Assembly (NCBI RefSeq): GCF_001427665.1
Contig: NZ_LMHC01000006.1
Coordinates: 98,928 to 162,927, forward strand
DNA length: 64,000 nt
Direction of reading: 5' to 3'
Source: Caulobacter sp. Root655
GTDB lineage: Bacteria > Pseudomonadota > Alphaproteobacteria > Caulobacterales > Caulobacteraceae
Shown: positions 16,744-36,016 of the stretch, one piece after another
Position numbering within the stretch: the stretch's first letter is position 1
Layout: every line of letters begins with the position of its first letter
Program-made: the position numbers and the translations under genes
Notes under the pieces: generated by a model
The model's input: the letters and a program-made list of their open reading frames with translations, nothing else
The model's database searches: none
What the model was told of the DNA's origin: nothing

Positions 16744-16781
16744 ACGAGGCCCCAATAAACGAAGGCCCCAATAAAAAAGGA

Positions 16782-16805
16782 GCCGGACGACGGGAGTCGT
16801 CCGGC
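16782..16805 (-). terminator. Rho-independent terminator of the second fucosidase
   Basis: Perfect 10-base stem GCCGGACGAC / GTCGTCCGGC with a 4-base loop. On the minus strand it is followed by a run of six T after TCC. It lies between converging genes and probably also slows lldD read-through. Beside it AGGCCCCAATAAA occurs twice in tandem. Confidence 0.85.
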
Positions 16806-16831
16806 CCAGGCGGGGAGGTTTCGACGCGCCG

Positions 16832-18875: not shown

Positions 18876-21800
18876 TCAGCCGGCCTTTGGCTTGAAGCGG
18901 AAGGCCCCGCGGCCGGGTGGGACGGCATAGACCGCGCAGCCCGCTTCCTTGCGCAGGAACCGCGCGCCGGCCGGGGCGCGGGGCAGCCGCTCGCCGCCGT
19001 TCGGCAGCCAGGCCTCGGCCACGCAGGCCCCGGGGATGGCCACCTCCAGCACGGCCAGCCCGTCCGGCTCGCGCCGCCAGTGCGAAGCGGCCAGGCCGCG
19101 CGGCGTCAGGATCGTCGCCCCCGCTCGGTCCAGCCCGGTCGGCAGGATGGGCCGCGCCTGGAGGCGGGCATAGCCCGGCGCGGTCGGTCGCAGCCCGGCC
19201 AGGCCCTCGTAGAACCAGCTGCTGATCGACGCGAAATAGTGGTGGTTCCACGACCGCGCGCCCAGGCCCCAGCCCTCGGGCATGCTGCGGATGTCGTTCT
19301 TCAGCCAGAAGCCCCAGCTGGGTTCGTCGGTGCGAGTCGCCACCCGGTAGGCGACGTCGCCATGGCCATGGTCGCCGAGCAACCGGGGCAGGTAGCGCAG
19401 GGCGTAGACCCCGACGTCCAGGCGGTAATTCTTGGCGACCAGATCGGCCGCCAGGCCGTCGACCACCGCCTGGGCCTGGCCGTCGGGGACCAGGCCCAGG
19501 GCGACAGGCAGGACGTTCATGGTCTGGGCGTAGACCGCCGGCTTGCCGCCGGTCGCCGGGGCCAGGTAGCGCCGCCCGGCGGCGTCCCAGTAACGGCGGT
19601 TGTAGGCCTCGCGCACCTGGGCGGCGAGCGCGGCGTAGCGCGCCGCCTCCTCGGCCTGGCCCAGTTGGCGAGCGCTGGCGGCCGCGCCGGTCAGCATGTG
19701 GAAGAAGAACGCGGTCGAGGTGGCGTCGACCGGCCCGGTCGGCCCGGCGGCGGCGTATTCGCCCAGGCCCCGGTCGTAGCGGAAGTCCGGCCCCTTGATG
19801 AAGGTCGCGGTGTAGTCGGCCAGGCGGCGGCGCATGGCCTGGGTGCGGGCCTCGATCCGCCGGTCGCCGAACCGCAGGGCCATCTCCTCGGGCAGGATGA
19901 AGGCGGCGACGTCCCAGGCCGGGGTCGGGCCCCAGATATAGTTCCAGCCCGGGCTGTTTTCGTAGCCGTAGAACGGCGTCGTGGGTACGATCTCGGGCAA
20001 CTCGCCGCTGGGGGCCTGGGCGTCGCCGAAGTCGTCCAGCCACTTGGTCCAGGTGCGAGCGACGTCGAAATTGACCGCAGCGGCGGCCGAGGAGGCCTGG
20101 GCGTCGCCGGTCCAGCCGTTCTTCTCCAGGGTCGGGGTGTCGGTCTGGGCGGCGTGCAGGTTGTTGAGCAAGCCCTGACGCGCCGCGTCGTGGATCTGAT
20201 TGAGCAGGGCGTCTCCGCAGTCGAACGTCCCGATCGAGGCGACCGCCGAATGCACCTCGACAGCGGTCACCGTGTCGGGCGCCGGCGGGCCGGCCAGGCC
20301 GGTGACCTGGACATAGCGGAAGCCGCCATAGCCGAAGGCCGGCCGCCAGGTCTCGGGACCGGTTCCGGCCAGGGTGTAGCGGAAGGTCAGCAGCTGGGCG
20401 TCGATCAGGCCGCTGGCGACCTGGATCGTCCCGTCCTTGCGCGGCTTCTCGGCCAGGACCAGCGAGATCGTCCGCCCGGCCGGGCCGGCGGCGGCCAGCA
20501 CCGGCTGGCCGGTGATGATCCGGCCGAAATCGAACACCCAGACGCCAGGCGAAACCTCCCGGGTCGCCACCGGCCTGTGGGTGGCCACACCCGTGACGGG
20601 TTCATGGATCGCCGCGACCAGGCGGCCGGCTGGAGCCTTGGCGACCCGCGCCGGCTCCCAGGCCGCGTCGTCGAAGGCGGCCGTGCGCCAGCCGCGCGGC
20701 TCCAGCCGCGCGTCGTGGCGTTCCCCAGCATAGATCGAGTCGAACAGGGTCGGGCCGTCGGCGCTCTTCCACGAGGGATTGGTGACCAGCACCTGGACCT
20801 CGCCATCGGCGCGGACGATCTCCAGCCGGGCCCGCATCGCCGGCTCGGCCGTCCAGGGCGCCTTGTGGAAGTACCATTCGTTGGGTTCGGTCACGCCGTA
20901 CCAACCGCGTCCCAGTTCGGCGGCCAGGACGTTGCGCCCCTCGCCGATCAGGGCCGTGACGTCGTGGGCCGCGTAGAGCACCCGCTTGTCATAGGCCGTC
21001 CAGCCGGTGGCCAGCGGCCCCGCGCCGATCGCCCGGCCGTTCAGGCTGAAATCGGCCCAGCCGCCGGCCGCGACATAGAGCCGGGCCCGCGCCACCAGTC
21101 CCGCGACCTCGAACCCACGCCGCAGCAGCGGCGCGGGATGAGCCAGGGGCAGCATGATGTCCTTGCCAGGCACCCCGGCGGCGATGGTCAGGCCGTCGGG
21201 CCCGGGGTCGCCGCCGGTGAAGGGATTGTCGCCGCCCTCGAACCGGGTCTCGAAGCCCGGGCGGTCGGGGGCGGTCAGGCCGACGCCATGGATCACCGCC
21301 GCGCCGGCCTCCGGCGCCAGGAAGCCGAACGTGCCCTCGGCCTGGGTCGCGTCGTCCAGGGTGTCGATGACGACGCCGTCGAGGCTGACGCTCAGCGTCG
21401 CGCCCTTGGCGGTGATCGCCAGTCGCCGGCGCTGGCCGGCCAGGGTCGCGAAGGCGGCCGGCAGCGGCGTGGTCTTCAGCTTGCGCAGCTTGACCTGCGG
21501 GCTGGCCCCGCCCGGATACTGCCGGACCTGGACCATCAGCGACGGCGCGCCCTCGACCTCGCCGATCCGCAGGACATAGGCCTCGCCATAGGTCTTGCCC
21601 TCGGGCCGGGCCCGCAGCAGCACGTCGAAGAACCGGCCCTTCAGGGTGAAGTCGACGGTCAGGACCTGGTCGGCCCAGCCGCGCGGCGGGGCCAGATTGC
21701 GACCGATCCAGGCCGCCTCGCCCCAGTCGGCGGGATCGAGCAGGCCCATCTCGAAGGCGGCGGGCGCGCTCCAGGCCCCTGCCCGGTCGGCGGTGTCCCA

Positions 21801-22163
21801 CAGCCGGACCCGCCAGGCGCGACGCTGGCGCGAGGCCAGGGGCGGACCGGCATAGACCGCCTCGACCGCGTCGGCGCTGGCCACCTTGCCGCTGTCCCAG
21901 ACCGGCCGGCCAGCCGCGAGCTCGGCCTCCGACCCGGCGACCTGCACCTGATAGGCGCTCTGGCCGACCGCCGGCGGACGCCACATCAGCCGGGGCCTGG
22001 GCTCGTCCAGACCGATCGGGCTGGGCGCGTATTCCACACGCGGATCGACGGGGGCTCCCGTCGCGCCGCCGCCGGTTTCCAGCGCCGAGGCCCCGCCCGC
22101 CGTCAACCAGCCGGCCAGCGCCGCGCCGCCGCCGAGCGCATCGCGCCGCGTCGCCTTGACCAT
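18876..22163 (-). CDS. Exported alpha-L-rhamnosidase (GH78)
   Basis: Inverting glycosidase that removes terminal L-rhamnose. The protein has 1095 residues with the multidomain GH78 layout: an N-terminal Fn3-like part (PSPIGLDEPRPRLMWRP), an inserted jelly-roll region (about 190-310), the rhamnosidase N domain (GWTAYDKRVLYAAHDVT, GRGWYG) and the six-hairpin catalytic domain from about 650, with DTPTLEKNGWTGDAQ and SWGFWLKNDI. The N-terminus ATRRDALGGGAALAGWL looks like a twin-arginine signal, so export may be folded via Tat. It follows a small secreted protein by 25 bases and probably shares its TetR-controlled promoter. Confidence 0.92.
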   Translation of the reverse strand: MVKATRRDALGGGAALAGWLTAGGASALETGGGATGAPVDPRVEYAPSPIGLDEPRPRLMWRPPAVGQSAYQVQVAGSEAELAAGRPVWDSGKVASADAVEAVYAGPPLASRQRRAWRVRLWDTADRAGAWSAPAAFEMGLLDPADWGEAAWIGRNLAPPRGWADQVLTVDFTLKGRFFDVLLRARPEGKTYGEAYVLRIGEVEGAPSLMVQVRQYPGGASPQVKLRKLKTTPLPAAFATLAGQRRRLAITAKGATLSVSLDGVVIDTLDDATQAEGTFGFLAPEAGAAVIHGVGLTAPDRPGFETRFEGGDNPFTGGDPGPDGLTIAAGVPGKDIMLPLAHPAPLLRRGFEVAGLVARARLYVAAGGWADFSLNGRAIGAGPLATGWTAYDKRVLYAAHDVTALIGEGRNVLAAELGRGWYGVTEPNEWYFHKAPWTAEPAMRARLEIVRADGEVQVLVTNPSWKSADGPTLFDSIYAGERHDARLEPRGWRTAAFDDAAWEPARVAKAPAGRLVAAIHEPVTGVATHRPVATREVSPGVWVFDFGRIITGQPVLAAAGPAGRTISLVLAEKPRKDGTIQVASGLIDAQLLTFRYTLAGTGPETWRPAFGYGGFRYVQVTGLAGPPAPDTVTAVEVHSAVASIGTFDCGDALLNQIHDAARQGLLNNLHAAQTDTPTLEKNGWTGDAQASSAAAAVNFDVARTWTKWLDDFGDAQAPSGELPEIVPTTPFYGYENSPGWNYIWGPTPAWDVAAFILPEEMALRFGDRRIEARTQAMRRRLADYTATFIKGPDFRYDRGLGEYAAAGPTGPVDATSTAFFFHMLTGAAASARQLGQAEEAARYAALAAQVREAYNRRYWDAAGRRYLAPATGGKPAVYAQTMNVLPVALGLVPDGQAQAVVDGLAADLVAKNYRLDVGVYALRYLPRLLGDHGHGDVAYRVATRTDEPSWGFWLKNDIRSMPEGWGLGARSWNHHYFASISSWFYEGLAGLRPTAPGYARLQARPILPTGLDRAGATILTPRGLAASHWRREPDGLAVLEVAIPGACVAEAWLPNGGERLPRAPAGARFLRKEAGCAVYAVPPGRGAFRFKPKAG

Positions 22164-22188
22164 CGGTCGTCTCCGAAGGTGGGCGCGA

Positions 22189-22599
22189 TCAGTGCGCGCC
22201 GGGCGCCGTACCCGTCGCCGATGCGCCCGGCATGGAGCCAGCAGGGCCGGCGGCCGGCGCGGGCACCTTGGCCAGGGCCTCGCCCAGGGCCTTCAGCGCT
22301 TCCTCGTCGAGATTGGCCTGCGGGAAGCCGGCCAGTTCGCGCGGGCTCAGCCCCTTGATCAGCTCGGCCGTGGCCGCCTGCTCCTCGGGCGGCGCCTCGG
22401 GCTGGCCGGCGGCCTCGCCGCGCTTGCGGAAGAACTCGCTGAGCACCGCCCGGGCGGCCGGGTCGGCGAAGATGTCGGCCATCTTGGTGTCGACCGAATA
22501 GTGGGGCGTGGCCGGGGCCGCCTGCCGCGCCTGGGCCATGCCGCCCGCCGACAGGATCGCCACCGACGCCATCAGGGCGATCGTCAATTTCCTCGACAT
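22189..22599 (-). CDS. Small secreted protein, possible accessory domain of polysaccharide enzymes
   Basis: Function not known. It has 136 residues: a signal peptide (MSRKLTIALMASVAILSAGG...AQA), a short conserved-looking core YSVDTKMADIFADPAARAVLSEFF then GLSPRELAGFPQANLDEEALKALGEALAKV, and a Pro/Ala/Gly tail. I recall similar cores at the ends of sphingomonad and caulobacterial esterases and glycosidases, so this may be a stand-alone version; that is from memory and needs a profile search. The start at 22599 was chosen because the signal peptide begins there. It precedes the rhamnosidase gene and has a TetR-type operator 65 bases upstream. Confidence 0.65.
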   Translation of the reverse strand: MSRKLTIALMASVAILSAGGMAQARQAAPATPHYSVDTKMADIFADPAARAVLSEFFRKRGEAAGQPEAPPEEQAATAELIKGLSPRELAGFPQANLDEEALKALGEALAKVPAPAAGPAGSMPGASATGTAPGAH

Positions 22600-22663
22600 G
22601 TCGAACCTTCCATTCAAAGCCAAAAAGAGCGTTTCCAGCGAAGGACGAGCGCCTTCGTTCTTC

Positions 22664-22687
22664 GTTACGTTATGCAACCGTATAACC
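22664..22687. promoter_or_regulatory. TetR-type operator, copy 1
   Basis: GTTACGTTATGCA followed by ACCGTATAAC, containing a GTTAT...ATAAC inverted repeat with an 8-base centre. The reverse strand of 23425-23448 has the same GTTACGTTATGCA. It lies between the TetR gene end and the small secreted protein/rhamnosidase operon. Confidence 0.65.
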
Positions 22688-22701
22688 AAAGTCGAGCCTC
22701 A

Positions 22702-23313
22702 TCAGCGCACCATGATCGCCACCAGCGCGTCGGCATGGGCCTCGATCACCGCGGGGTCCGAAGGGTCCACGCCCCACACCCGCCGGACCTCCGGCGCCAG
22801 GGTGTAGAACAGCTGGGCCGCGCCGACGAAGATGTAGACCGAGGCCGGGACCGAGACCTTGGGCAGGATCCCCTCCTTCTGGCACAGCAGCACGAAGGCC
22901 TCGGCCGCCTGGCGGGTGTGAACGATGAACTCGTCGGCCGCCCAGCGGAAACGCTCGCTGTCGCGCACGCTTTCCTGGACCATCAGCCGGGCGTGCTCGG
23001 GGTGCCGCGCCGAATAGAGCACCACCGCCCGGATCACCGCCTTGGCGAAGTCGCGGTACGAGCCGTAGGCCGGATCGTCCGGAGCCGGCAGCTGCAACTC
23101 CTCGGCCTGACGCTTGAACAGGAACGACACCGCCGCCCGCCACAGGGCGTCCTTGCTGTCGAAATGGTACTTGATCAGCGCGTGGTGCACGCCCGCGTGG
23201 GCGGCGATCTCGCGCGTCGATGCGCCCTCGAAGCCCTGTTCGGAAAAGATCTCCAAGGCCGACTGGAGAATGCTGGCCTGGGTGGCCGCCTTCTGGCGCG
23301 CGCGAATGTTCAA
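22702..23313 (-). CDS. TetR-family transcriptional regulator
   Basis: Ligand-responsive repressor of about 203 residues. The N-terminal helix-turn-helix spans roughly residues 10-55 (ASILQSALEIFSEQGFEGASTREIAAHAGVHHALIKYHFDSKDALW), followed by an all-helical ligand domain. No ATG is available. I prefer the TTG at 23313, which has AGGGA seven bases upstream, over a TTG at 23343 with no visible ribosome site. Three similar palindromes at 22664, 23425 and 29595 flank it and nearby operons, so it probably represses itself and them. The ligand domain gives no substrate hint by eye. Confidence 0.85.
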   Translation of the reverse strand: MNIRARQKAATQASILQSALEIFSEQGFEGASTREIAAHAGVHHALIKYHFDSKDALWRAAVSFLFKRQAEELQLPAPDDPAYGSYRDFAKAVIRAVVLYSARHPEHARLMVQESVRDSERFRWAADEFIVHTRQAAEAFVLLCQKEGILPKVSVPASVYIFVGAAQLFYTLAPEVRRVWGVDPSDPAVIEAHADALVAIMVR

Positions 23314-23424
23314 GACGGGATCCCTGGGTCGTGGGCGCCGCAACCCGCGACGCGCGGTGAGACTAACAAGAGACTCGGCGGAAATGAAATTGGTTCACCA
23401 AGCGGTGAATCAGGCTCGACATTT

Positions 23425-23448
23425 CATTATACAGATGCATAACGTAAC
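23425..23448. promoter_or_regulatory. TetR-type operator, copy 2, in divergent tetR/esterase promoter
   Basis: The minus strand reads GTTACGTTATGCA then TCTGTATAATG, identical to copy 1 over the first 13 bases. It is placed to control both the regulator and the esterase-receptor operon. Confidence 0.65.
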
Positions 23449-23490
23449 ACAGTCGATACGGACCGCACAGAGTCCGAGGGGAAACGCGAG

Positions 23491-25095
23491 ATGCGCGATC
23501 TGAAGCGAAAGCCGTTGGCGCGCGTGTCCTACGCGCCGCTCCTCGCCGTGGCCCTGAGCCTGGCCGCTTGCGGCGCCCAGAGCCAGACCCCGCCGCCCAA
23601 CACGCCCCTGGTTCCTGTCGAAGCCCGGATCGCCGACGGCGCCCTGCGCGGCTACACGGCCTCGGGCGTCAACACCTTCAAGGGCGTGCCCTACGCCCAG
23701 CCGCCGGTCGGAGCCCTGCGCTGGCGTCCGCCGCAGGCCGCCCAGGCCTGGACCGGCGTGCGCGACGCCCAGGCCTTCGGTTCGGACTGCATGCAGAACC
23801 GCGCCGGCTGGGACGATAGCCAGTCCACCCTGCCGGTCAGCGAGGATTGCCTGACCCTGAACGTCTGGTCGCCCGACAACGCGGCAAAAGCGCCGGTCAT
23901 GGTCTGGATCCATGGCGGCGGCTTCGTGATGGGCTCGGGCAGCCAACCGGTGTTCGACGGCGCGGCCCTGGCCCGTCGCGGTGTGGTGGTGGTGACCTTC
24001 AACTACCGCCTGGGCCGTTTCGGCTTCTTCGCCCACCCGGCCCTGACCGCCGAGCATCCCAACGAGCCCAAGGCCGACTACGGCCTGATGGACCAGGTCG
24101 CGGCCCTGGCCTGGGTGAAGGCCAACATCGCCGCGTTCGGCGGCGATCCGGGCAAGGTGACGATCTTCGGCCAGTCGGCCGGCGGCGGCTCGGTCAACCA
24201 GCTGATGCTGATCCCCACGGCGCGCGGCCTGTTCAGGCAGGCCATCGCCCAGTCGGGCGGCGGCCGCGACCTGTGGCCTCTGCTGTCGTCGGACCGCCCC
24301 GGCAAGGTCTCCGCCGAGTCGACCGGGACCGCCTTCGCCGCCAAGGCCGGGGTGAAGACCCAGGACGCCGAAGCCTTGCGCGCCCTGCCCGCCGCCAAGG
24401 TGCTGGGCAAGCTGGACCTGCTGAACCAGGAGGAGGCCACCTATTCCGGCCCGGTGATCGACGGCAAGCTGGTCACCAGCTCGGCCGCCGAAGGCTTCGC
24501 GGCCGGCCACCAGGCCAAGGTCCCGCTCCTGATCGGGGCGGGCAGCGACGAAATGGGCATCATCCCCGGTTTCCTGAAGGGCATGTTCGCCGGCAAGATC
24601 GTCGCCCAGCTGGGGATCCCCGAGGACAAGCTGCTGGGCGTCTACGGCTCCAAATCGGCGCTGAACGCCGACCTGCCCAGCGACGCCTCGTTCGTCGAGC
24701 CCGCCCGCGCCCTGGCCGGACTGGCGGCCAAGTCCGGCCAACCCGTGTGGCTGTACAGCTTCGGCTATGTCGCCGAGGGCAAGCGCAAGGACTGGAAGGG
24801 CGCGCCGCACAGCAGCGACCTGGCCTATGTCTTCGACACCCTGTCGACGCTGAAGGACAAGACCTCGCCGGCCGACCAGACCATGGCCACGCGCTGGGCC
24901 GACACCTGGGTCGCCTTCGCCAGGACCGGCGCGCCCGACACCGCCGCCCTGCCCGGCTGGCCCCGCTACGACGCGGCGACCGACCTGCGCATGGCCGTGA
25001 CCAACGACGGCGCGGCGCCGGGCGCCTCGCCCGACCGCATCCGCGCCCTGGCGACGCTGCGCGACGCCCAGGCCGCCGCCACCAATCAACCATAA
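23491..25095 (+). CDS. Type-B carboxylesterase, lipoprotein
   Basis: Serine esterase of the alpha/beta-hydrolase fold, 534 residues. A signal with lipobox LAAC places the mature N-terminal lipidated Cys at residue 27, so it is membrane anchored, facing the periplasm or exterior. Family marks are GVNTFKGVPYAQPPVGALRW, EDCLTLNVW, the oxyanion segment WIHGGGFVMGSG, nucleophile Ser229 in GQSAGGGS, an acidic residue in GSDEMG and His in GAPHSSDL. It is followed 18 bases later by a TonB receptor, so it probably removes ester groups from the receptor's cargo. The exact ester is unknown. Confidence 0.88.
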   Translation: MRDLKRKPLARVSYAPLLAVALSLAACGAQSQTPPPNTPLVPVEARIADGALRGYTASGVNTFKGVPYAQPPVGALRWRPPQAAQAWTGVRDAQAFGSDCMQNRAGWDDSQSTLPVSEDCLTLNVWSPDNAAKAPVMVWIHGGGFVMGSGSQPVFDGAALARRGVVVVTFNYRLGRFGFFAHPALTAEHPNEPKADYGLMDQVAALAWVKANIAAFGGDPGKVTIFGQSAGGGSVNQLMLIPTARGLFRQAIAQSGGGRDLWPLLSSDRPGKVSAESTGTAFAAKAGVKTQDAEALRALPAAKVLGKLDLLNQEEATYSGPVIDGKLVTSSAAEGFAAGHQAKVPLLIGAGSDEMGIIPGFLKGMFAGKIVAQLGIPEDKLLGVYGSKSALNADLPSDASFVEPARALAGLAAKSGQPVWLYSFGYVAEGKRKDWKGAPHSSDLAYVFDTLSTLKDKTSPADQTMATRWADTWVAFARTGAPDTAALPGWPRYDAATDLRMAVTNDGAAPGASPDRIRALATLRDAQAAATNQP

Positions 25096-25113
25096 AAAAC
25101 GGAGGGGACGAAA

Positions 25114-27372
25114 ATGTTGAGGTTCAAGACGGGATTGGCGCTGGGCGCCTCCATGGTCGCGCTGATGTCCGGCCAGGCCCTGGCCCAGGACGCCAAACCC
25201 GCTGACGAAGCCATGCTGATCACCGAGGTGGTGGTCACCGCGCAGAAGCGCGAGGAAAAGCTGCAGGACGTGCCGATCGCCATCAGCGTGGTCGGCGAAC
25301 AGGAGCTGATCCGCCGCAACATCGGCAATATCGACCAGTTGAAGCTGGTGGTTCCCAGCTTCGACGCCACCGCGTTCGGCGTCTCGGTGCGCGGCGTGGG
25401 CACCTCGACCTTCTCGACCTCGATCGAGCCGACGGTCTCGACCGTGCTGGACGGCGTCGTGCTGGGCCGGCCGGAAATGGCCCTGGGCAGCTTCTACGAC
25501 GTGGCCCGGGTCGAGATCCTGCGCGGCCCGCAGGGTATGTTGTTCGGCAAGAACGCCTCGGCGGGCCTGGTCAGCATCACCACCAGGTCGCCCAAGCTCG
25601 ACGCGCTCGAGGCCCTGGCCAATGTCAGTGTCGGCGAGGGCGGCTACACCAAGTCCGACGCCGCCGTGAACCTGCCGCTGGGTGACAAGGCCGCCCTGCG
25701 GGTCGCCGGCTTCGTCAACAAGCTGGACGGCGTGCTGAACAACAAGTTCGACGGCCGCCAGTTCAACGGCAATGACGAGTGGGGCGGCCGGGCCAAGCTG
25801 CTGTGGCGGCCGACCGACACCATCGACGTGCTGCTGACTGCCGACTACGCCAAGCAGGACCAGTCGGTGACCTGGTCGCCCTACAAGGTGAACCCGGCCG
25901 GCGCGCCGAGCTTCGTCTATTTCGGTTGCGGCGTGGTCGCCTCGCCCGACAACACCGACCTGTGCATCGACGGACCGCAGTACAAGCGCCGCGAGAACTA
26001 CGGCTTCGCGGCCCAGGTCGACTGGAGCCTGCCCGCCGGCCTGACCCTGACCTCGATCACCGCCGTCCGGCGCGACTTCGACGACAGCAACGGCGACTCC
26101 GACAGCCTGCCGGTCAACATCCTCAACGACAACATCTCCAACCAGGACCTGCGCCAGGTCAGCCAGGAGGTGCGCATCGCCTCGCCGACCGGCGGCAAGT
26201 TCGACTACGTGGCCGGCGTCTACTACTTCCGGCAGAAGACCATCCAGGTCACCGACCAGACGGGCGGTTTCGGCCTGCCGTTCAACCTGAAGGGCAGCAG
26301 CACGATCAACAGCCTGGTGGACACCGCCAGCTACGCCGTCTTCGGCCAGGCCCACTACCAGTTGACCGAGCAGCTGAGCCTGATCGGCGGCGCGCGCCTG
26401 ACGCGCGACGAGGTGTCGCTCGACTTCCATCAGTTCGCCAAGCCGTTCCCCTACATCGCCGTCAACCCGAAGGTCGACTCCTACGACATCGCCCGGGAGA
26501 CCAACCTCTCCTGGAAGCTCGGCGCCCAGTACCAGTTCGCCGCCAAGACCATGGGCTATGCGACCATCTCGCGCGGCTACAAGGGGCCGGGCTTCAACCA
26601 GACGGGGGTCAGCAACGCCACGACCAGCCAGGAGGTCGGTCCCGAGATCCCGACCAGCTACGAGATCGGCGTGAAGACCACTCTGCTGCAGGGCCTGGCG
26701 GTGCTGAACGTCGCGGCCTTCGACACCAAGTTCGAGGACTATCAGGCCCAGACCGTCGATTTCACCCTGACGCCGCCGGCCTTCCGCACGATCAACGCCG
26801 GCGACCTGAAGACCCGGGGCGTCGAAGCCGACCTGACCGCGATCCTGGCCCCTGGCCTGATGGTGACGGCCGCCGCGGCCTATATCGACGCCAAGTACGG
26901 CCAGTTCGCGCCGATCTCCTGCGACCCCGTGGTCACGCCCGTCGGCTGCGTGGTGCTGAACCCGTCACGCCCCCCGCTCACCCCGCCGCTCTACGGCTAT
27001 GACGCCTCGGGCCAACGCCTGGGCGGGGTGTCCAAGTGGAAGGCCAGCCTGGCGGCGGTGTACGAGCGCCCGATCGGCCATGGCCTGAAGCTGGCCGGCT
27101 CGGCCGACTACGGCTGGCGCAGCGCCGCCAACGCCGCGGCGACCAAGGACCCCAACACCCTGATCAAGGCCTACGGCATCCTCGGCTTCACCCTGGGGGT
27201 CGGCGACGAGGGCGACCGCTGGAAGCTGGCGATGTGGGGCAAGAACGTCACCGACAAGCGCTTCCCCAGCGCCCTGTTCGGCACGCCGTTCGGCGGGGCC
27301 GGCGACTATAGCCAGGTGCTGACCGGCGACGCCTTCCGCCGCTACGGCGTGACCCTGAACCTTCGCTACTGA
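25114..27372 (+). CDS. TonB-dependent receptor of the esterase/GH78/GH5 locus
   Basis: Outer-membrane importer of 752 residues. The signal peptide ends at ALA-Q (residue 24), then come TonB box ITEVVVTAQKREEKLQDVPIAISV, a plug with RGVGTSTFSTSIEPTVSTVLDGV and VEILRGPQGMLFGKNASAGLV, and a barrel ending GVTLNLRY. It belongs to the shorter class often used for hydrophobic or aromatic compounds and siderophores as well as glycosides. GGAGGGG lies before the ATG. It is co-transcribed with the esterase, and a clear terminator follows, so this is a two-gene operon. Confidence 0.9.
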   Translation: MLRFKTGLALGASMVALMSGQALAQDAKPADEAMLITEVVVTAQKREEKLQDVPIAISVVGEQELIRRNIGNIDQLKLVVPSFDATAFGVSVRGVGTSTFSTSIEPTVSTVLDGVVLGRPEMALGSFYDVARVEILRGPQGMLFGKNASAGLVSITTRSPKLDALEALANVSVGEGGYTKSDAAVNLPLGDKAALRVAGFVNKLDGVLNNKFDGRQFNGNDEWGGRAKLLWRPTDTIDVLLTADYAKQDQSVTWSPYKVNPAGAPSFVYFGCGVVASPDNTDLCIDGPQYKRRENYGFAAQVDWSLPAGLTLTSITAVRRDFDDSNGDSDSLPVNILNDNISNQDLRQVSQEVRIASPTGGKFDYVAGVYYFRQKTIQVTDQTGGFGLPFNLKGSSTINSLVDTASYAVFGQAHYQLTEQLSLIGGARLTRDEVSLDFHQFAKPFPYIAVNPKVDSYDIARETNLSWKLGAQYQFAAKTMGYATISRGYKGPGFNQTGVSNATTSQEVGPEIPTSYEIGVKTTLLQGLAVLNVAAFDTKFEDYQAQTVDFTLTPPAFRTINAGDLKTRGVEADLTAILAPGLMVTAAAAYIDAKYGQFAPISCDPVVTPVGCVVLNPSRPPLTPPLYGYDASGQRLGGVSKWKASLAAVYERPIGHGLKLAGSADYGWRSAANAAATKDPNTLIKAYGILGFTLGVGDEGDRWKLAMWGKNVTDKRFPSALFGTPFGGAGDYSQVLTGDAFRRYGVTLNLRY

Positions 27373-27414
27373 CCGTCCGGAGCGGGAAGACGTCGAGCGA
27401 TTCCCGCTCTTTAG

Positions 27415-27448
27415 GACCGGAGGGTTTAGGTCCTCCGGTCTCTTTTTT
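27415..27448 (+). terminator. Rho-independent terminator after the TonB receptor
   Basis: A 9-base stem GACCGGAGG / CCTCCGGTC with an 8-base loop followed by TCTTTTTT. A second hairpin, AGCGGGAA...TTCCCGCT, precedes it at 27381-27408. Confidence 0.9.
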
Positions 27449-27484
27449 ATCCGTGACTGGACCTGGCGGACCTCAATTCTACCT

Positions 27485-27611
27485 CCGCTCATCCCGGCGA
27501 ACGCCGGGACCCAGATCCCATGGCGGCGTGGCTGATTGGAAGGGCTCAGCGCTCTTGGCGTCAGCCTCAAAGCCTTTCCATCTGGGTCCCGGCGTTCGCC
27601 GGGATGAGCGG
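27485..27611. repeat. 127-base MITE-like palindromic element, copy 1
   Basis: Perfect 32-base terminal inverted repeats (27485-27516 and 27580-27611, beginning CCGCTCATCCCGG) around about 63 bases that can fold further (GGCTGA...TCAGCC). A close copy is at 34058-34185. No transposase is associated, and it lies between converging genes. Confidence 0.9.
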
Positions 27612-27621
27612 AATTTTAAGT

Positions 27622-29571
27622 TCAGGCCGTCCTTTCCACCACCACCTCCAGCGCACCCGCCGCACCCGCCCAGACCAGGACGAGTTGCGCCTCGCGGTCG
27701 TGGGTCCAGCGGGCGTCCGGCTGTGACAGCCGCACCTGGACGCCGTTCGGGAAGTGCGCGGTCGGCAGATAGATCTCGGTCGGGGCGTCGATGGCGAGGT
27801 CGGCCTCCAGCTCCAGGTCGAACCGCCCGCCCGAGAACCGCATCGCGCCGATCACCCCCTGGGTCAGCCGTGCATAGGGCCGGCTGAAGCCCAGCAGGGC
27901 CCGCGCGCCGGCGTCGGGGTCGTTGGCCCCCTCATCGACCTGATCGGCCGAATAGATCGACAGGTCCTCCTGGTTCCAGCCGTCTCCCACCCGCAGGTCG
28001 TTGCGGTTGCTGGCGGTGTAGTTCCACTGGGTCGAGGACAGCCGCAGCGCGTCCAGCGCATCGTACATCAGGCCCAGCGCCTGGGCGTGGGCGGTCCACG
28101 GCGCCTGGCCGCGCTCGCCCCGGTCCCAGGCCTCGAAGGCGTCGCCGCCATTGAGGTCGTAGGGGATGCCGAACTCGCCGATCAGGGTCGGCGCGCCCTG
28201 CTCGCCGAACCGCGAGCCCAGCCAGCCCACATAGGCCAGCTGGTTGAAATAGTGGGCGCGCAGGGCGTCCAGATCCTGGGCCGGGTCGAAGCGCTTCTTG
28301 CGCAGGATGTTGATGTCGTACCAGTGGCTGGCGTTGACGCTGCGCTCGGGCATCGCCTCGGGGAACATCCGCCCGGTGCCCAGCACGTAGGGGCACAGCT
28401 CGGCGAACACCAGCCAGTCGGACCGCACGGCCCGGATCGTCTCGGCCACCCTGGCGAAGAACGGGGCCATGAACTGGTTCTCGTGGTCGATCGGCTGGCC
28501 GTCGCGGACCCGGAAGAAATCCTCGTCCAGCACCTGCCCGCCCTCGCCGTCGAACCGCCAGGCGCCGGCCTGTTCGAAGGGGTCGGGGCCGTCGTGCGTC
28601 CAGATCGAGACGCCGGCCAGGTTGGCGGACTGTTCGCCGACCGCGTGGAGCACGCCCTTCTCGTCGCTCCAGCCCAGGCGGGTGATCGACACCGTCTGGC
28701 CCCGCGCCGCGCGCAGGGCGTCCAGCGGCGTCCAGTACAGGCCCGGCCAGACGTGCATCGGGTCCTCGGGCGTCGCCCGCAGCCGGGGCTGGCTCATCGG
28801 CAGGCCCACCCAGCCGAGACCGGGCTCGTTGAAGGTGTCGAAGCCGATGACGTTGTCCAGGTGCGCCACCCGCGCCGCCACGACGGCCATGGCGCCCAGA
28901 TAGTGGTCCTGCAGGAAGTGCTGGACGTTGCGGCCCTCGACCGTCCAGTCCGGGGTCAGGGTCGCGCCGGCGAAGAAGGCGGTCCAGGCCACGCCATTGG
29001 CGGCCAGGCGGTAGTTCGACGCCCAGCTCATCATCGGATAGCGGTCTTCCTGCCGCGCCTCCGGACTGTCGTAGTCGTAGCGGTGCTGCATGACATGGGC
29101 CGCGTCGGCGGCGTCGAAGCGGGTGAAGTCCAGGCCCAGGGCCTCGAACACCCAGCCCGGCGCGCCATCGCCGCCACTCATCCGGCTCCAGACGTCCTGG
29201 TGGAAGTCCACGAACACCAGCAGCCCATGGGTCCTGGCCTTCTCGATGACGGCGACGAAATAGTCGAGATAGTCCTGGTCATACTGGCCGGGGCCCGCGT
29301 GCTCGACCGCCTCCCAGGTGGTCAACAGCCGCAGGGTGTTGAACCCCCAGCGCGCGATGCGCCCCAGATGGACGTCGGCCTCGTCCAGCGGGAACGGCCG
29401 GCCGATGAAGCTGACCGTCCGATGGTCGGAGAAGTCGCTGGGCCGGTCGGTGCCGCCGCCTGGCCACGGGACCTTGCAGTCGCCGCCCAGATTGACGCCG
29501 CGCAGGATCGCCTGGCGTCCGTGAGGGTCCACGAAAAGGCTTCCCCGAACATCGATCAGCGGCTTTGACAT
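27622..29571 (-). CDS. Cytoplasmic GH5 glycosidase, endoglycosylceramidase/steryl- or flavonoid-glucosidase-like
   Basis: Retaining beta-glucosidase of 649 residues without a signal peptide, so it acts inside the cell. Motifs are ILRGVNLGGDCKVPW at the start of the barrel, HLGRIARWGFNTLRLLTTWEAVEHAGPGQYD, VDFHQDVWSRMSGGDGAPGW, acid/base Glu in TFNEPGLGW and nucleophile Glu in LIGEFGIP. A C-terminal beta domain occupies about 550-649. These patterns are those of GH5 members acting on glucosylceramides, steryl glucosides or flavonoid glucosides rather than on cellulose. It is divergent from a GPH sugar symporter, fitting import of an intact glucoside followed by cytoplasmic cleavage. Confidence 0.85.
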   Translation of the reverse strand: MSKPLIDVRGSLFVDPHGRQAILRGVNLGGDCKVPWPGGGTDRPSDFSDHRTVSFIGRPFPLDEADVHLGRIARWGFNTLRLLTTWEAVEHAGPGQYDQDYLDYFVAVIEKARTHGLLVFVDFHQDVWSRMSGGDGAPGWVFEALGLDFTRFDAADAAHVMQHRYDYDSPEARQEDRYPMMSWASNYRLAANGVAWTAFFAGATLTPDWTVEGRNVQHFLQDHYLGAMAVVAARVAHLDNVIGFDTFNEPGLGWVGLPMSQPRLRATPEDPMHVWPGLYWTPLDALRAARGQTVSITRLGWSDEKGVLHAVGEQSANLAGVSIWTHDGPDPFEQAGAWRFDGEGGQVLDEDFFRVRDGQPIDHENQFMAPFFARVAETIRAVRSDWLVFAELCPYVLGTGRMFPEAMPERSVNASHWYDINILRKKRFDPAQDLDALRAHYFNQLAYVGWLGSRFGEQGAPTLIGEFGIPYDLNGGDAFEAWDRGERGQAPWTAHAQALGLMYDALDALRLSSTQWNYTASNRNDLRVGDGWNQEDLSIYSADQVDEGANDPDAGARALLGFSRPYARLTQGVIGAMRFSGGRFDLELEADLAIDAPTEIYLPTAHFPNGVQVRLSQPDARWTHDREAQLVLVWAGAAGALEVVVERTA

Positions 29572-29594
29572 TCCATTCCCTCGGAGGCATTCTC

Positions 29595-29620
29595 GTTTCG
29601 TTATACAACTGGTGAATAAA
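29595..29620. promoter_or_regulatory. TetR-type operator, copy 3, degenerate
   Basis: GTTTCGTTATACAACTG matches copy 1 at 14 of 17 positions; the right arm is weaker (AATAA). It lies in the divergent promoter between the GH5 gene and the GPH symporter. Confidence 0.5.
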
Positions 29621-29668
29621 CATGACGGGCCCGCCGGTCCAGTCCTGCCAGGGTGAAACGGGGAAGAA

Positions 29669-31081
29669 ATGTCGGGGATTCAGTTAGACGGGGCGCGGCT
29701 CACGACCTTCAAGAAGGTCGCCATCGGGGCCGGGGATTTCGGCTTCAACCTCTATTGGCAGACGGCCGGGCTCTATCTGCTGTTCTTCTACACCGACAGC
29801 CTGGGGCTGCCGGCCGCCACGGCCGGCTTCATCTACATGGCCGCCCTGATCTGGGACGCGGCGCTGGACCCGGTCCTGGGTCTGCTGGTCGACCGCACCC
29901 GCACCAGCATGGGCCGCTACCGGCCTTATCTCATTCTCGGGGGAGCGCCGCTGGCGCTCGGCTTCATCGCCATGTTCGCCGGGCCCTCGACGGGCACGGC
30001 GGCGATCATCTTCGCCGCGGCCACCCACCTGGCGTTCCGCACGCTCTACGCCGTGGTCTCGATCCCCTACGCCGCCCTGTTCGCCCGCATCACCAAGGAC
30101 AGCACCCAGCGCGGCGACATGGCCGGCATCCGGATGGTGTTCGGCACCCTGGCGGCGATCGCCGTCGCCGCCCTGACCCTGCCGCTGGCCCAGGCCCTGG
30201 GCACGCCGGAAGCGCCGCGTCGCGGCTGGCTGATCGTCGGCGCCGTCTATGGCGTGATCGCCGCCTTGTGCCTGCTGGGCGTGGCCTGGGCCGCGCGCGG
30301 CCTGGACGTGGCCGACGAGGCCCCGCCGCCGCCCCGCCCGCTGCGCGACGTGGTCCGCAGCCTGGCCGCCAACCGCGCCCTGCACCTGGTGCTCGGCGCC
30401 GTTGCCCTGAGCGCCTTCTCCGGCACGATGTTCTCCAAGAACCTGCTCTACTATTTCAAGTACGTGGTCGGCGACGCCGGCATGGGCAGCGCGGCCCTGG
30501 GCATCGGCGCCCTGACGGCGGCGATCTGCGTGCCGGCCTTCGCGGTCGTGGTCCGGCTGGTGGGCAAGCGCGCCACCTGGCTGATCGGCGCCGTGCCGGG
30601 CATCGCCGGCCTGCTGGTCTGGCACTTCGTCGACGGCATGGGGGTGATCCCGCTGTTCGCCGCCGTGGTGCTGCAGGCCATGGGCCTGGCCTCCTACGTG
30701 GTCTGCTTCTGGGGCATGCTGCCCGACACCGTCGAGTACGGCGAATGGCGCAGCGGCGTGCGCACCGAGTCGATGGTCTTCGGCCTGACGGTGCTGGGCC
30801 AGAAGGCGGCCCTGGGCCTGGGCGCCGGCTTCCTGGGCGTGGCGCTGTCGCACATCGGCTACACGGCCAACGCCGTCCAGACCCCGGAAACCCTGGCCGG
30901 GATCAAGGCCATGATGTTCTGGATCCCGCTGATCGGCGGCCTGGGCTCGGCGGGCCTGATCTTCTTCTACCCGATCAACCGCGCCGCCCACGACAAGATG
31001 GTGGCCGAGATCGCCGCGCGCTCGGAACAGACCCCCATCGCCCCGACCAAGATCTCGCTGCAAGAAACGGTGATTCAATGA
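29669..31081 (+). CDS. GPH-family glycoside:cation symporter (MFS)
   Basis: Inner-membrane transporter of 470 residues with about twelve helices. GPH-family marks are the GDFGFNLYWQTAGLYLLFFYTDSLGL first helix, the cytoplasmic AALIWDAALDPVLGLLVDRTRTSMGRYRPYL signature and PDTVEYGEWRSGVRTESMVFGL. Such proteins import melibiose-like or glucuronide-type glycosides with Na+ or H+. The divergent cytoplasmic GH5 enzyme is the likely next step. Its last four bases overlap the tannase-family gene (ATGA), so the two are co-translated. Confidence 0.9.
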   Translation: MSGIQLDGARLTTFKKVAIGAGDFGFNLYWQTAGLYLLFFYTDSLGLPAATAGFIYMAALIWDAALDPVLGLLVDRTRTSMGRYRPYLILGGAPLALGFIAMFAGPSTGTAAIIFAAATHLAFRTLYAVVSIPYAALFARITKDSTQRGDMAGIRMVFGTLAAIAVAALTLPLAQALGTPEAPRRGWLIVGAVYGVIAALCLLGVAWAARGLDVADEAPPPPRPLRDVVRSLAANRALHLVLGAVALSAFSGTMFSKNLLYYFKYVVGDAGMGSAALGIGALTAAICVPAFAVVVRLVGKRATWLIGAVPGIAGLLVWHFVDGMGVIPLFAAVVLQAMGLASYVVCFWGMLPDTVEYGEWRSGVRTESMVFGLTVLGQKAALGLGAGFLGVALSHIGYTANAVQTPETLAGIKAMMFWIPLIGGLGSAGLIFFYPINRAAHDKMVAEIAARSEQTPIAPTKISLQETVIQ

Positions 31082-32682
31082 CCTCCGCCTCCCTCCGGGC
31101 GGCGCCCCTCGTCGCGTCGTTCGCCCTGGCCGGGGCCGCCGCCCTGGCCACCCAGGCCCAGGCCGCCACCACCTGCGAGGACCTGGCCAACCTAAAAGTG
31201 GCCGGCGCGACCATCACCGCCGCGAAGACGATGGTGGTAGGCGATCGCCAGCCGATCGAGACCTTCGGCATCCCGCCCCTGCCGGTCGCCCAGGCCTATT
31301 GCCGGGTCAACGCCACCCTGGCCCCGACCGCCGCCTCGTCGATCAAGGTCGAGGTCTGGCTGCCGCTCGAGACCGCCTGGAACGGCAAGTTCATGGCCAC
31401 CGGCAACGGCGGTTACGGCGGTTCGCTGGGCGGACCGCGCCTGTCGATGCGCCCGGCGCTCAAGGCCGGCTACGCGGTGGCCGGAACCGACATGGGCCAC
31501 ACCGAGGACGGGGCCGGCGGCGAGGCCAACTGGGCGCTGAACCAGCCCGAGAAGATCGTCGACTGGGCCCACCGCGCCAACCACGAGACCGCGCTGTTCG
31601 CCAAGGCGATGATCGCCGCCCACTACGGCAAGGGACCGCGCCTGTCCTACTTCTCCGGCTGCTCCGACGGCGGCCGCGAGGCCCTGATGGAGGCCCAGCG
31701 CTACCCCAACGACTTCGACGGCATCGTCGCCGGGGCTCCGGCCAATGCCTGGACCCGCCTGATGACCAGCTTCGCCTGGTCGTGGAAGGCTGTGCACGAA
31801 GCGCCCGAAAGCCGCATCCCCGACGCCAGCCTGGCCGTCGTCCAGAAGGCCGCCCTGGCCCAATGCGACAAGCTGGACGGCGTCGCCGACGGAGTGATCG
31901 AGGACCCACGCCTGTGCAAGTTCGACCCCGCCGTCGTACAGTGCAAGCCGGGCCAGACCGCCGAGTGCCTGACCCCGGCCCAGACGGCCGGCCTGCGCAA
32001 GCTGTATGAAGGTCCGCGCGATCCGCGCACCGGCAAGTCGCTGTTCCCCGGCTACCCGGCCGGCGGCGAGGCCGTCCCCAACGCCTGGCCGCTGTGGATC
32101 AGCGGCGAGAAGGCCCAGCACCCCTCCTTCGCCCGCTCGTTCTTCGCCAACTTCGTCTATTCGGACCCGAACTGGCAGCTGGCCAAGCTGAACTTCGCGG
32201 CCAATGGCGACTTCAAGATCGCCCACGACCGGCTGGGGGCGCTGGTCGCCTCGGACAATCCCGACCTGTCGGCCTTCAAGGCGCGCGGCGGCAAGCTGAT
32301 CCTGTTCCACGGCTGGTCCGACGCGGCGATCACCCCCTACGCCACGATCCGCTACTACGACGCCGTCCGGAAAACGATGAGCGTCAAGGGCGCCGATAGC
32401 TTCTCGCGGCTGTACATGGTTCCGGGCCTGTCGCACTGCTTCGGCGGACCCGGCCCCAACAGCTTCGACATGCTGGCCACGCTGGACGGCTGGGTCGATG
32501 GCGGGAAGGCGCCGGACGTGGTCATCGCCAGCAAGACCAACAACGACTATGCCGGCCTGCTCGACATGCCGGCCAAGACCCTGCGCACCCGCCCGCTCTG
32601 CGCCTATCCCAAGGTGGCGCGCTGGGACGGCAAGGGCTCGACCGACGAGGCGGCCAGCTTCAGCTGCGCCAAGCCGGGGTGA
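31078..32682 (+). CDS. Secreted tannase/feruloyl-esterase-family hydrolase
   Basis: Hydrolyses phenolic esters such as galloyl or feruloyl esters. It has 534 residues with a signal peptide ending near AQA (residue 29). Catalytic marks are nucleophile Ser196 in SGCSDGGRE with its neighbouring Cys, an Asp in HGWSDAAITP and His453 in LSHCFGGPG; a second Cys beside the His allows the disulphide linking the catalytic residues. The loop CDKLDGVADGVIEDPRLC looks like the family calcium site. It is translationally coupled to the symporter. The real acyl group is unknown, but its pairing with glycosidases points to an acylated glycoside. Confidence 0.87.
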   Translation: MTSASLRAAPLVASFALAGAAALATQAQAATTCEDLANLKVAGATITAAKTMVVGDRQPIETFGIPPLPVAQAYCRVNATLAPTAASSIKVEVWLPLETAWNGKFMATGNGGYGGSLGGPRLSMRPALKAGYAVAGTDMGHTEDGAGGEANWALNQPEKIVDWAHRANHETALFAKAMIAAHYGKGPRLSYFSGCSDGGREALMEAQRYPNDFDGIVAGAPANAWTRLMTSFAWSWKAVHEAPESRIPDASLAVVQKAALAQCDKLDGVADGVIEDPRLCKFDPAVVQCKPGQTAECLTPAQTAGLRKLYEGPRDPRTGKSLFPGYPAGGEAVPNAWPLWISGEKAQHPSFARSFFANFVYSDPNWQLAKLNFAANGDFKIAHDRLGALVASDNPDLSAFKARGGKLILFHGWSDAAITPYATIRYYDAVRKTMSVKGADSFSRLYMVPGLSHCFGGPGPNSFDMLATLDGWVDGGKAPDVVIASKTNNDYAGLLDMPAKTLRTRPLCAYPKVARWDGKGSTDEAASFSCAKPG

Positions 32683-32686
32683 CACG

Positions 32687-32718
32687 GCCGGGGACAGGCG
32701 CATGCGCCTGTCCCCGGC
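32687..32718. repeat. Perfect 32-base palindrome, GGGGACAGGCGCATG family, copy 1
   Basis: A perfectly self-complementary sequence centred on GGCGCATGCGCC, starting four bases after the tannase stop codon. Shorter copies follow stop codons at 55600-55625 and 56444-56469. It probably folds as a terminator-like hairpin. Confidence 0.85.
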
Positions 32719-32803
32719 CAAGTCCACCTCGCAAAACCACTAGACTGACCCAAGGGCGCCGGCCGCCAGATCGGTTCAAACAACCGTTCTGGAGGAAAAC
32801 GCC

Positions 32804-34042
32804 ATGCCGCAAGCCCTGATCATCGACGCCTGCCGCACGCCGCGCGGCATCGGCAAGGTCGGCAAGGGAGCCCTGGCCGACTTCCATCCCCAGCACCTGG
32901 CCGCCACGGTGCTGAAGGCCCTGGCCGAGCGCAACGACCTGAACACCGCCCAGGTCGACGACATCATCTGGGGCACCAGCACCCAGCGCGGCAAGCAGGG
33001 TGGCGACCTGGGCCGGATGGCGGCGCTGGACGCCGGCTATGACGTGCGGGCCAGCGGCATGACCCTGGACCGGTTCTGCGGCTCGGGCATCACCACCGTG
33101 AACCTGGCGGCGGCCTCGATCATGTCGGGCATGGAAGACCTGGTGATCGCCGGCGGGACCGAGATGATGTCCTACACCGCCGCCACGGCCGACCGCACGT
33201 CGGTGGGGTTGCTGGACTCCGGCAACCTGCGCCTGCGGGCCCGCCACCCCCAGACCCATCAGGGCGTCTGCGCTGACGCCATCGCCACCCTGGAAGGCAT
33301 CGACCGCCGGGTGCTGGACGAGTTAGCCCTGCTCAGCCAGCAGCGCGCCGACCACGCCATCCGCCACGGCCACTTCGACCGGGCCCTGGTCCCGGTGCTG
33401 CGCGACGACGGCTCGGTGGCGCTGGACCGTGAGGAGTTTCCCCGCCCCGAGACCACGCTCGAAGGCCTGTCGGCGCTGAAGGCCTCGTTCGAGATGATGG
33501 CCGGCGTGCCGATCGACGAGGCGGGCACGACCTTGGGCGGGTTGATCAATCAGGTCTATCCGGACCTGAAGATCCAGCACGGGCACCATGCCGGCAACTC
33601 GTCGGGCGTGGTCGACGGGGCGGCCGCCGTGCTGCTGGCCTCGCCCGCCTACGCCGCCGCCCATGGACTGAAGCCTCGCGGCCGGGTGGTGGCCATGGCC
33701 AATATGGGCGACAGCCCGACCCTGATGCTCAACGCCCCGGTCCCGGCGGCCCGCAAGGTGCTGGCCAAGGCCGGGCTGACGGTGGATGACATCGACCTGT
33801 GGGAGATCAATGAGGCCTTCGCCGTGGTGGCCGAGAAGTTCATCCGCGACCTGGGGCTCGACCGCGACAAGGTCAATGTCAACGGCGGAGCCATGGCCCT
33901 GGGCCATCCGATCGGCGCGACGGGTTCGATCCTGATCGGCACGATCCTCGACGAACTGGAGCGCCGCGACCTCAAGCGCGGCCTGGTGACGATGTGCGCG
34001 GCCGGCGGCATGGCCCCGGCGATCATCGTGGAGCGGGTCTGA
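32804..34042 (+). CDS. Acetyl-CoA C-acyltransferase (thiolase)
   Basis: Thiolase of 412 residues joining or cleaving beta-ketoacyl-CoA. The nucleophile is Cys92 in DRFCGSG; other active-site motifs are NEAFA, GGAMALGHPIGATG and the second Cys in CAAGGMAP. GGAGG lies eight bases before the ATG. It stands alone, 121 bases after the tannase gene and behind a palindrome, so it may be independent of that operon. If linked, it would process CoA-activated side chains of a released aglycone or phenylpropanoid acid. Confidence 0.9.
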   Translation: MPQALIIDACRTPRGIGKVGKGALADFHPQHLAATVLKALAERNDLNTAQVDDIIWGTSTQRGKQGGDLGRMAALDAGYDVRASGMTLDRFCGSGITTVNLAAASIMSGMEDLVIAGGTEMMSYTAATADRTSVGLLDSGNLRLRARHPQTHQGVCADAIATLEGIDRRVLDELALLSQQRADHAIRHGHFDRALVPVLRDDGSVALDREEFPRPETTLEGLSALKASFEMMAGVPIDEAGTTLGGLINQVYPDLKIQHGHHAGNSSGVVDGAAAVLLASPAYAAAHGLKPRGRVVAMANMGDSPTLMLNAPVPAARKVLAKAGLTVDDIDLWEINEAFAVVAEKFIRDLGLDRDKVNVNGGAMALGHPIGATGSILIGTILDELERRDLKRGLVTMCAAGGMAPAIIVERV

Positions 34043-35739: not shown

Positions 35740-35808
35740 GAGCACGGTTCCTTGGACTTCACCTCCGCGCGCAACAGAAGCGCGGGTCGGCGAAAGGAAA
35801 GAAAAAAT

Positions 35809-35843
35809 CCTGGGTGATGGTCAGGGGGAGACCATCACCCAGG
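35809..35843 (-). terminator. Rho-independent terminator downstream of the TonB receptor
   Basis: Perfect 14-base stem CCTGGGTGATGGTC with a 7-base loop; on the minus strand it is followed by ATTTTTTC. It lies 60 bases before the halogenase-like start, so it may attenuate read-through from the receptor. Confidence 0.8.
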
Positions 35844-35915
35844 GAGCGCAGTCTGGAGGAATGCATGCGCTCAAGGATGGCTGGCGCGACGCGCCGAGGG
35901 GCGACACGCCGCGCC

Positions 35916-35951
35916 TGAAGCGAAACCCGCCGGGAGGAGGATTTCGCTTCA
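35916..35951. promoter_or_regulatory. Hairpin TGAAGCGAAA...TTTCGCTTCA
   Basis: Perfect 10-base arms with a 16-base loop that contains GGGAGGAGG, between two other strong hairpins in the 277-base gap from receptor to halogenase-like gene. It has no T-run, so a terminator role is unlikely. Confidence 0.5.
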
Positions 35952-35970
35952 AACTCGAAAAACGGATCCC

Positions 35971-36000
35971 GCCGGCCCGGACGCTTCCATCCGGGCCGGC
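35971..36000 (-). terminator. Hairpin directly after the TonB receptor stop
   Basis: An 11-base perfect stem GCCGGCCCGGA / TCCGGGCCGGC with an 8-base loop, followed on the minus strand by GTTTTTC after seven bases. Probable first terminator of the receptor transcript. Confidence 0.7.
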
Positions 36001-36016
36001 GAGGTTTGGACCTCGC

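Follow-up and report, generated by a model that had tools for sequence, protein, structure and literature searches.

We investigated a stretch of 64,000 nucleotides from Caulobacter sp. Root655 (contig NZ_LMHC01000006.1, positions 98,928 to 162,927; hereafter the window), whose host genome comprises 5.2 Mb in 27 contigs. An initial annotation, made from the letters alone, had described here a candidate system for acylated rhamnosyl-glucosides next to a TetR gene. Gene finding and Pfam scans recovered every gene it named (GH78, TetR, carboxylesterase, TonB receptor, GH5, GPH, tannase-family protein and thiolase), together with a small exported protein ahead of GH78 that it had lacked. The order along the window, candidate operators included, is as follows:

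18876..22163, reverse strand: GH78 alpha-L-rhamnosidase; five Pfam GH78 domains; best PDB relative 3w5m
22189..22599, reverse strand: small predicted exported protein, 136 amino acids from an ATG at 22599; starts the GH78 transcript; family-less
22669..22686, no strand: candidate TetR-type operator of the GH78 transcript, 1 mismatch to RTTATRCANNTGYATAAY
22702..23343, reverse strand: TetR-family regulator (TetR_N 3.7e-14); the real start may lie some codons further downstream
23426..23443, no strand: candidate TetR-type operator between TetR and carboxylesterase, 0 mismatches to RTTATRCANNTGYATAAY
23491..25095, forward strand: carboxylesterase (COesterase 1.4e-113); lipobox LAAC; GQSAG nucleophile motif
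25114..27372, forward strand: TonB-dependent receptor with plug and barrel domains, starting 18 bases past the carboxylesterase
27622..29571, reverse strand: predicted cytoplasmic GH5 beta-glucosidase of the sterylglucosidase type, without signal peptide
29600..29617, no strand: asymmetric candidate TetR-type operator between GH5 and GPH, 3 mismatches to RTTATRCANNTGYATAAY
29669..31081, forward strand: GPH-type glycoside symporter (TIGR00792, 318.6 bits against a cut-off of 231.35); closest solved structure MelB
31078..32682, forward strand: tannase/feruloyl-esterase family protein (PF07519, 1.1e-125); signal peptide; start overlapping the GPH stop (ATGA)
32804..34042, forward strand: thiolase, adjoining the block and judged to lie outside the system

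With the thiolase left out, the studied block spans 18876-32682 and holds about five transcripts (small gene-GH78, TetR, carboxylesterase-receptor, GH5 and GPH-tannase). The N-terminal sequences, judged by eye (lipobox, signal peptide, twin-arginine-type N-terminus, none in GH5), agree with the proposal that the esterases and the rhamnosidase are exported. A family-less open reading frame on the reverse strand at 31192-32727, which sits opposite the tannase gene, was discarded.

Three promoter regions in the window carry one common palindrome, as expected of a TetR regulon. The intergenic copies are GTTATGCAACCGTATAAC at 22669, ATTATACAGATGCATAAC at 23426 and a variant, GTTATACAACTGGTGAAT, at 29600, so that the palindrome reported at three promoter regions beside the TetR gene is real. 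A first version of the pattern gave four strand-matches (two sites) in the window against a shuffle mean of 0.2, and the best two matches to RTTATRCANNTGYATAAY in the whole genome, with 0 and 1 mismatch, are the 23426 and 22669 sites. The comparison was then extended to 19 loci in which a TetR of at least 55% identity lies near GH5, namely the window, L002-L008, L010-L012, L015, L031, L081, L092 and L094-L097; L008 and L031, in which a cut or split TetR lies some 10 kb from GH5, were counted, and L009 was excluded as a near-duplicate of the window. Across these loci, 44 sites occur at up to three mismatches, compared with 1.1 expected from block-shuffled sequence, and none of the 44 lies outside the range from -60 to +350 bases around the start projected for TetR, carboxylesterase, GH5, GPH or the small gene; the count includes an L015 site at a second TetR copy and a receptor. 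Sites with at most one mismatch were present in 15 of the 19 loci and in none of 66 loci without this TetR. The latter set was counted after removal of five loci with a more distant TetR (L043, L063, L072, L075 and L078), L009, and short or duplicate loci (L001, L084-L091 and L100-L103), and still contains at least one overlapping pair, L014 and L098, whose contigs are equally long.

The sites recur at corresponding genes. Every one of the 19 loci has a site at TetR and/or the carboxylesterase, and a 22669-type site stands at the GH78 transcript in 7/7 Caulobacter loci counted with the small gene, the window included. At the GH5/GPH promoter, a site with up to three mismatches was found in 16 of the 19 loci, L012 and L015 having one at four mismatches and L081 starting within GH5. 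Read on the GH5-sense strand, this site is ATTnnnCnnnYGYATAAY in all 16 listed sites, with its centre 36-43 bases from the GH5 start and with one weak and one strong half in constant orientation. Conservation among relatives supports the 29600-29617 site as a candidate operator, and a single TetR regulon, with putative binding of TetR to these operators, is likely, as had been proposed.

The thiolase, which the initial annotation counted as part of the system, was rejected as a member; its gene has no operator, and the remaining 18 TetR loci gave no match to it; two of these (L003 and L081) stop short of the tannase side and are uninformative on this point. An inverted repeat at 32681-32724 precedes the gene. 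The palindrome in its promoter, CGGTTCAAACAACCG at 32772, was discarded as a shared motif, with 30 matches in the window at up to two mismatches against 29.95 expected.

To examine how these genes co-occur, we searched 390 Caulobacteraceae genomes. A TetR of at least 68% identity is present in 15 of them, and a GH5 of at least 60% in the identical 15, on the same contig and within about 7 kb. A TetR of 41-46% was found in eleven further genomes, and a GH5 of 53-58% likewise in eleven; G323 and G356 have both, on separate contigs. A GH78 of at least 57% identity occurs in 14 of the 15 cluster genomes, being split over contigs in G215 and interrupted by one internal stop in G093. The remaining 375 genomes lack it, and GH78s of at most 35% occur in 23 further genomes. 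In the fifteenth cluster genome (G207) the cluster is intact, and a different GH78 (33-36%, with a DERLGW motif) lies downstream of the tannase gene. Because two GH78 lineages joined one cluster at different places, this distribution suggests that rhamnose removal is wanted at this cluster.

Comparison of gene order in other Caulobacteraceae, which had been put forward as a check, found the order kept; the TonB receptor stays between carboxylesterase and GH5 in the Caulobacter loci L002, L003, L092 and L094-L097. Between receptor and GH5 in L092, a 629-amino-acid open reading frame gave no family match and may not be a real gene, and three stretches of the flank of Brevundimonas L007 likewise gave none. 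The order in Solimonas, Stenotrophobium, Hydrocarboniphaga and Nevskia (L010-L012 and L015) is tannase, carboxylesterase, TetR, GPH, GH5. The conserved core, as judged from sequence comparison, is TetR, GH5, the GPH symporter, the tannase-family esterase and the carboxylesterase. GH78 together with this TetR cluster was observed in Caulobacteraceae only, so the core may handle an acylated glucoside, with rhamnose as a local decoration. In a tree of 87 GH5 sequences (FastTree, midpoint root), 19/19 tips of TetR loci, which include L009 and omit the too short L081, form one clade with support 1.0 across Alpha- and Gammaproteobacteria, a single clade over two classes that fits transfer of the gene block.

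The GH5, whose nearest named relative is from Caulobacter sp. AP07 (97%), has a predicted two-domain fold with an enlarged cap, unlike that of endoglycoceramidases. Its closest solved relatives are the fungal sterylglucosidases Sgl1 and SglA, which we take to belong to GH5 subfamily 12. The model aligns with these over 575-602 residues, compared with 404-425 for endoglycoceramidases, and the Foldseek template modelling scores by query length are 0.74-0.85 and 0.50-0.54, respectively. Segments 34-47, 50-57 and 133-137 of the model are of low confidence, and the comparison therefore concerns the fold rather than the pocket itself. Passages of the Sgl1 study (PMC8497620) list Lys47, Asp144, Asn269, Glu270, Tyr453, Glu520, Trp570, Trp584 and Glu587 in the active site, Glu270 and Glu520 being catalytic, the others binding glucose, and Trp584 of the cap blocking a second sugar. 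These nine residues correspond to invariant residues among 40 aligned GH5s: E249, E466, K33, D126, N248, Y418, W516 and E535 of the window enzyme are invariant in the 40 sequences, as is W532, the counterpart of Trp584, which is kept in 95/95 rows when near-duplicates are included; H124 is kept in at least 90%. From its residues, the GH5 is predicted to have an active site that accommodates a single glucose together with a hydrophobic aglycone, and the earlier description of a cytoplasmic enzyme of the steryl, ceramide or flavonoid glucoside type holds. GH5 subfamily 12 includes flavonoid and ceramide glucosidases, a flavonoid glucosidase among them (PMC3526467).

The gene at 18876..22163 is a GH78 alpha-L-rhamnosidase by its domains (PF17389, PF08531, PF05592, PF17390 and PF25788, all above curated cut-offs) and glutamates, and is predicted to release rhamnose. 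PF05592 was matched once in the whole genome, and the N-terminus is of the twin-arginine type (TRRDAL). The candidate catalytic residues Glu680 and Glu963 are kept in 15/15 aligned rows, a set that includes the window sequence itself and three other GH78s. They align with glutamates of 3w5m, presumably the Streptomyces avermitilis enzyme, which we take to be its general acid and general base, numbered 636 and 895; the two enzymes also share their domain order, and the window GH78 has TDTPTLEKNGW where TDTPARDERLGW stands in 3W5M. Rhamnose mutarotase-family genes are present in 10 of the 15 cluster genomes. The small gene lies upstream of GH78 in Caulobacter and Brevundimonas loci, and its family members in the fetched loci all precede GH78. 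The family comprises 53 proteins of about 130 amino acids, the window's included, with a Pfam domain in none; the window protein, scanned as the longer open reading frame 22189-22689, has no Pfam or NCBIfam match.

The tannase-family protein matches PF07519 with 420.7 bits and has GCSDGG and SHC motifs, presumably the CS and HC parts of the CS-D-HC motif. Acyl-CoA ligases that score above the PRK12583 cut-off adjoin the tannase gene in L010 and L012, a ligase below that cut-off lies in the L008 cluster, and L006 and L007 have one by family clustering. The L010 ligase is closest to fatty-acyl- and feruloyl-CoA synthetases. The AMP-binding protein that follows GH78 in L004 is a different one, and family clustering places relatives of it in L005-L007 and L081. 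Since acyl-CoA ligases lie in the clusters of other lineages, they point to organic acids as the probable products of the esterases.

From gene content, operator distribution, co-occurrence, the predicted GH5 fold and conserved residues, all of which were computed, we infer TetR-operator binding, all substrates, cellular locations, the order of steps and the inducer. We consider it probable that 18876-32682 is a TetR-controlled catabolic regulon that imports beta-glucosides esterified with acids and capped by rhamnose, trims them in the periplasm and splits the monoglucoside in the cytoplasm. The aglycone would be flat and hydrophobic, and the compounds are most likely phenolic glycosides of plants. 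Such a compound would cross the outer membrane through the TonB receptor and lose its acyl groups to the lipoprotein carboxylesterase and the tannase-family esterase, and GH78 would take off alpha-L-rhamnose. The GPH symporter would import the resulting monoglucoside, from which GH5 would release glucose and the aglycone in the cytoplasm, and a pathway intermediate, perhaps the aglycone, would free TetR from its operators. The initial annotation had placed removal of esters and rhamnose outside the cell; the export signals agree with this, but trimming in the periplasm after TonB-dependent uptake is equally likely. Its overall interpretation is partly supported, being right in outline once the thiolase is removed: an acylated glucoside fits the conserved core, while rhamnose is lineage-specific.

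Several observations weigh against this regulon or the substrate assigned to it. The pattern was first derived from the window, and the fit of the window is not independent. The 29600 site is one of 16 genomic places with three mismatches and is weak on its own, because a reversed control pattern also had 11 matches at that tolerance. Loci without this TetR yielded 14 sites at up to three mismatches, in 11 of the 66 over 1.2 Mb. In five Brevundimonas loci, no site at up to four mismatches was found at the small gene-GH78 transcript, and a common four-mismatch site with one good half only lies between the downstream esterase and receptor pair in 5/5; because of this arrangement, the regulon layout appears to vary among lineages. 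GH78 was not found in the fetched stretches of Nevskiales or in rearranged sphingomonad clusters, so rhamnose would not be universal, and no acyl-CoA ligase was found in Caulobacter clusters. The sterylglucosidase likeness of GH5 would speak against a phenolic aglycone, and the breadth of subfamily 12, taken with solved relatives that act on steryl glucosides, leaves the aglycone unfixed and leans away from phenolics.

The same likeness is the starting point for a different substrate, a steroidal or triterpenoid saponin or an acylated steryl glucoside, with GH78 trimming rhamnose, the esterases removing acyl groups and GH5 acting as a true bacterial sterylglucosidase. Passages of PMC10653915 report that Sphingobium GH78 enzymes act on saponins, and a GMC oxidoreductase lies near the GH5/GH78 pair in L075. 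Among the scanned cluster genes, however, none was recognised as a steroid-ring gene, and KshA_C, the steroid 9-alpha-hydroxylase domain, was found in 0/15 cluster genomes; this count weighs little against sterols, because only 1/14 control genomes matched, below the cut-off, leaving sensitivity unproven. The tannase/feruloyl-esterase family member, the ligase near feruloyl-CoA synthetase and the GH5_12 flavonoid glucosidase lead us to prefer plant phenolic glycosides to saponins, and we regard the saponin or steryl substrate as rather unlikely. A bolder proposal, similarly doubtful, is a transferable regulon common to Alpha- and Gammaproteobacteria, with a bacterial sterylglucosidase at its centre. 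The one-glucose pocket of this enzyme would force acylated rhamnosyl glucosides of sterols or triterpenoids to be dismantled from the outside in; TetR would sense the freed aglycone, and the glycosidase for the outer sugar (GH78 types, perhaps GH3) would be swapped by lineage to suit local plant compounds.

A microbial or plant glycolipid, for example a rhamnosyl-glucosyl hydroxy-fatty acid of the resin-glycoside type whose acids and aglycone would enter beta-oxidation, would account for the neighbours of fatty-acid-CoA ligase type in several lineages and for the hydrophobic pocket reported in passages on the GH5 fold relatives. No beta-oxidation gene recurs in the clusters, and the window thiolase has neither an operator nor a syntenic partner, which makes this substrate less likely still. 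The block might also be a loose grouping of independent carbohydrate genes within a region rich in glycosidases, with no single substrate, since two GH29, one GH3 and deoxy-sugar (fucose-type) catabolic genes flank it in the window and a weak GH3 relative occurs in L004, L008 and L031 too. This appears quite improbable given the common operator and the co-occurrence over two classes; moreover, the other fetched Caulobacter loci showed no GH29, GH3, thiolase or halogenase alongside the cluster.

The flanks of the block hold further glycoside genes. A deoxy-sugar block at 2615-18655 encodes an enolase-family dehydratase, a TonB receptor, a GH29, IclR, an FAA hydrolase, an SDR, an aldo-keto reductase, a rhamnose-mutarotase-family gene (13900-14205), an MFS transporter, an FMN dehydrogenase and a second GH29. 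It resembles L-fucose or L-rhamnose breakdown and may consume rhamnose freed by the adjoining locus. At 34198-42236, a tryptophan-halogenase-family protein, TonB receptor, GH3 and LacI form a second, apparently separate glycoside locus, with no match to the TetR operator at up to three mismatches.

GH5s of this type also occur in other settings. The same genome has a second one (54-56%; L093, G000:C23:108500-128400) with TonB receptor, GPH symporter, PhyH-family and GntR genes and no operator match. In L062 (Porphyrobacter) and L075 (Sphingomonas), GH5 is accompanied by a GH78 of 29-30% identity, an esterase (Abhydrolase_3), an acyl-CoA ligase and a GPH symporter, with no operator at GH5 (L075 being outside the operator count); L062 has an extra GH1 and L075 the GMC oxidoreductase. 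In Parvibaculum/Rhodobiaceae loci such as L024, L025 and L032, the genes around the GH5 are conserved, and none was found to be related to the esterases, TetR or transporters of the system, which suggests a second role for the enzyme, perhaps in housekeeping. Plasmid relatives were matched in 12 records and set aside; of two neighbourhoods inspected (Sphingobium and Rhizobium), neither is annotated with the esterase-GH78-TetR set. On a plasmid of Sphingobium sp. TomTYG42 (L082), the annotation divides the GH5 relative into two proteins, which follow a TonB receptor and an MFS transporter; TomTYG-series isolate names occur in passages of the tomatine study (PMC10653915).

The locus would be a regulated glycoside-utilisation locus of a known kind with a new combination of parts. 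The closest solved enzymes, Sgl1 (Cryptococcus, 7LPO) and SglA (Aspergillus, 8EXD), are fungal, whereas the window GH5 is bacterial, has a predicted substrate and lies among the rhamnosidase, esterase and transporter genes of a predicted catabolic regulon. Steroidal glycoalkaloid catabolism in Sphingobium RC1 (PMC10653915) is alike in that GH78 and other glycosidases remove the sugars of plant glycosides; GH3, GH39, GH78 and GH106 are the glycosidase candidates there, and the terms GH5, TetR and TonB have 0 occurrences in the main text. Polysaccharide utilisation loci of the SusC/SusD type share the outer-membrane TonB receptor, exported hydrolases, inner-membrane sugar transporter and local regulator. 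The window receptor, however, is not of the SusC/RagA type (TIGR04056, 36 bits against a cut-off of 368.25), and the window's esterases and lipid-type glucosidase point to small glycosides. No description of a regulon of this make-up was found in the open-licence PMC literature searched, mostly first pages of titles and the beginnings of abstracts.

The work draws attention to a branch of GH5 subfamily 12 in bacteria, of which no characterised member was seen in the open-licence PMC literature and whose fungal relatives are drug targets, and TetR is a candidate biosensor for the released aglycone. One operator joins esterases, rhamnosidase, transport and glucosidase in a unit that can be tested in genera amenable to culture. 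Among plant chemicals, acylated glycosides form a large class, and a diet on them, not yet described, is likely for these bacteria.

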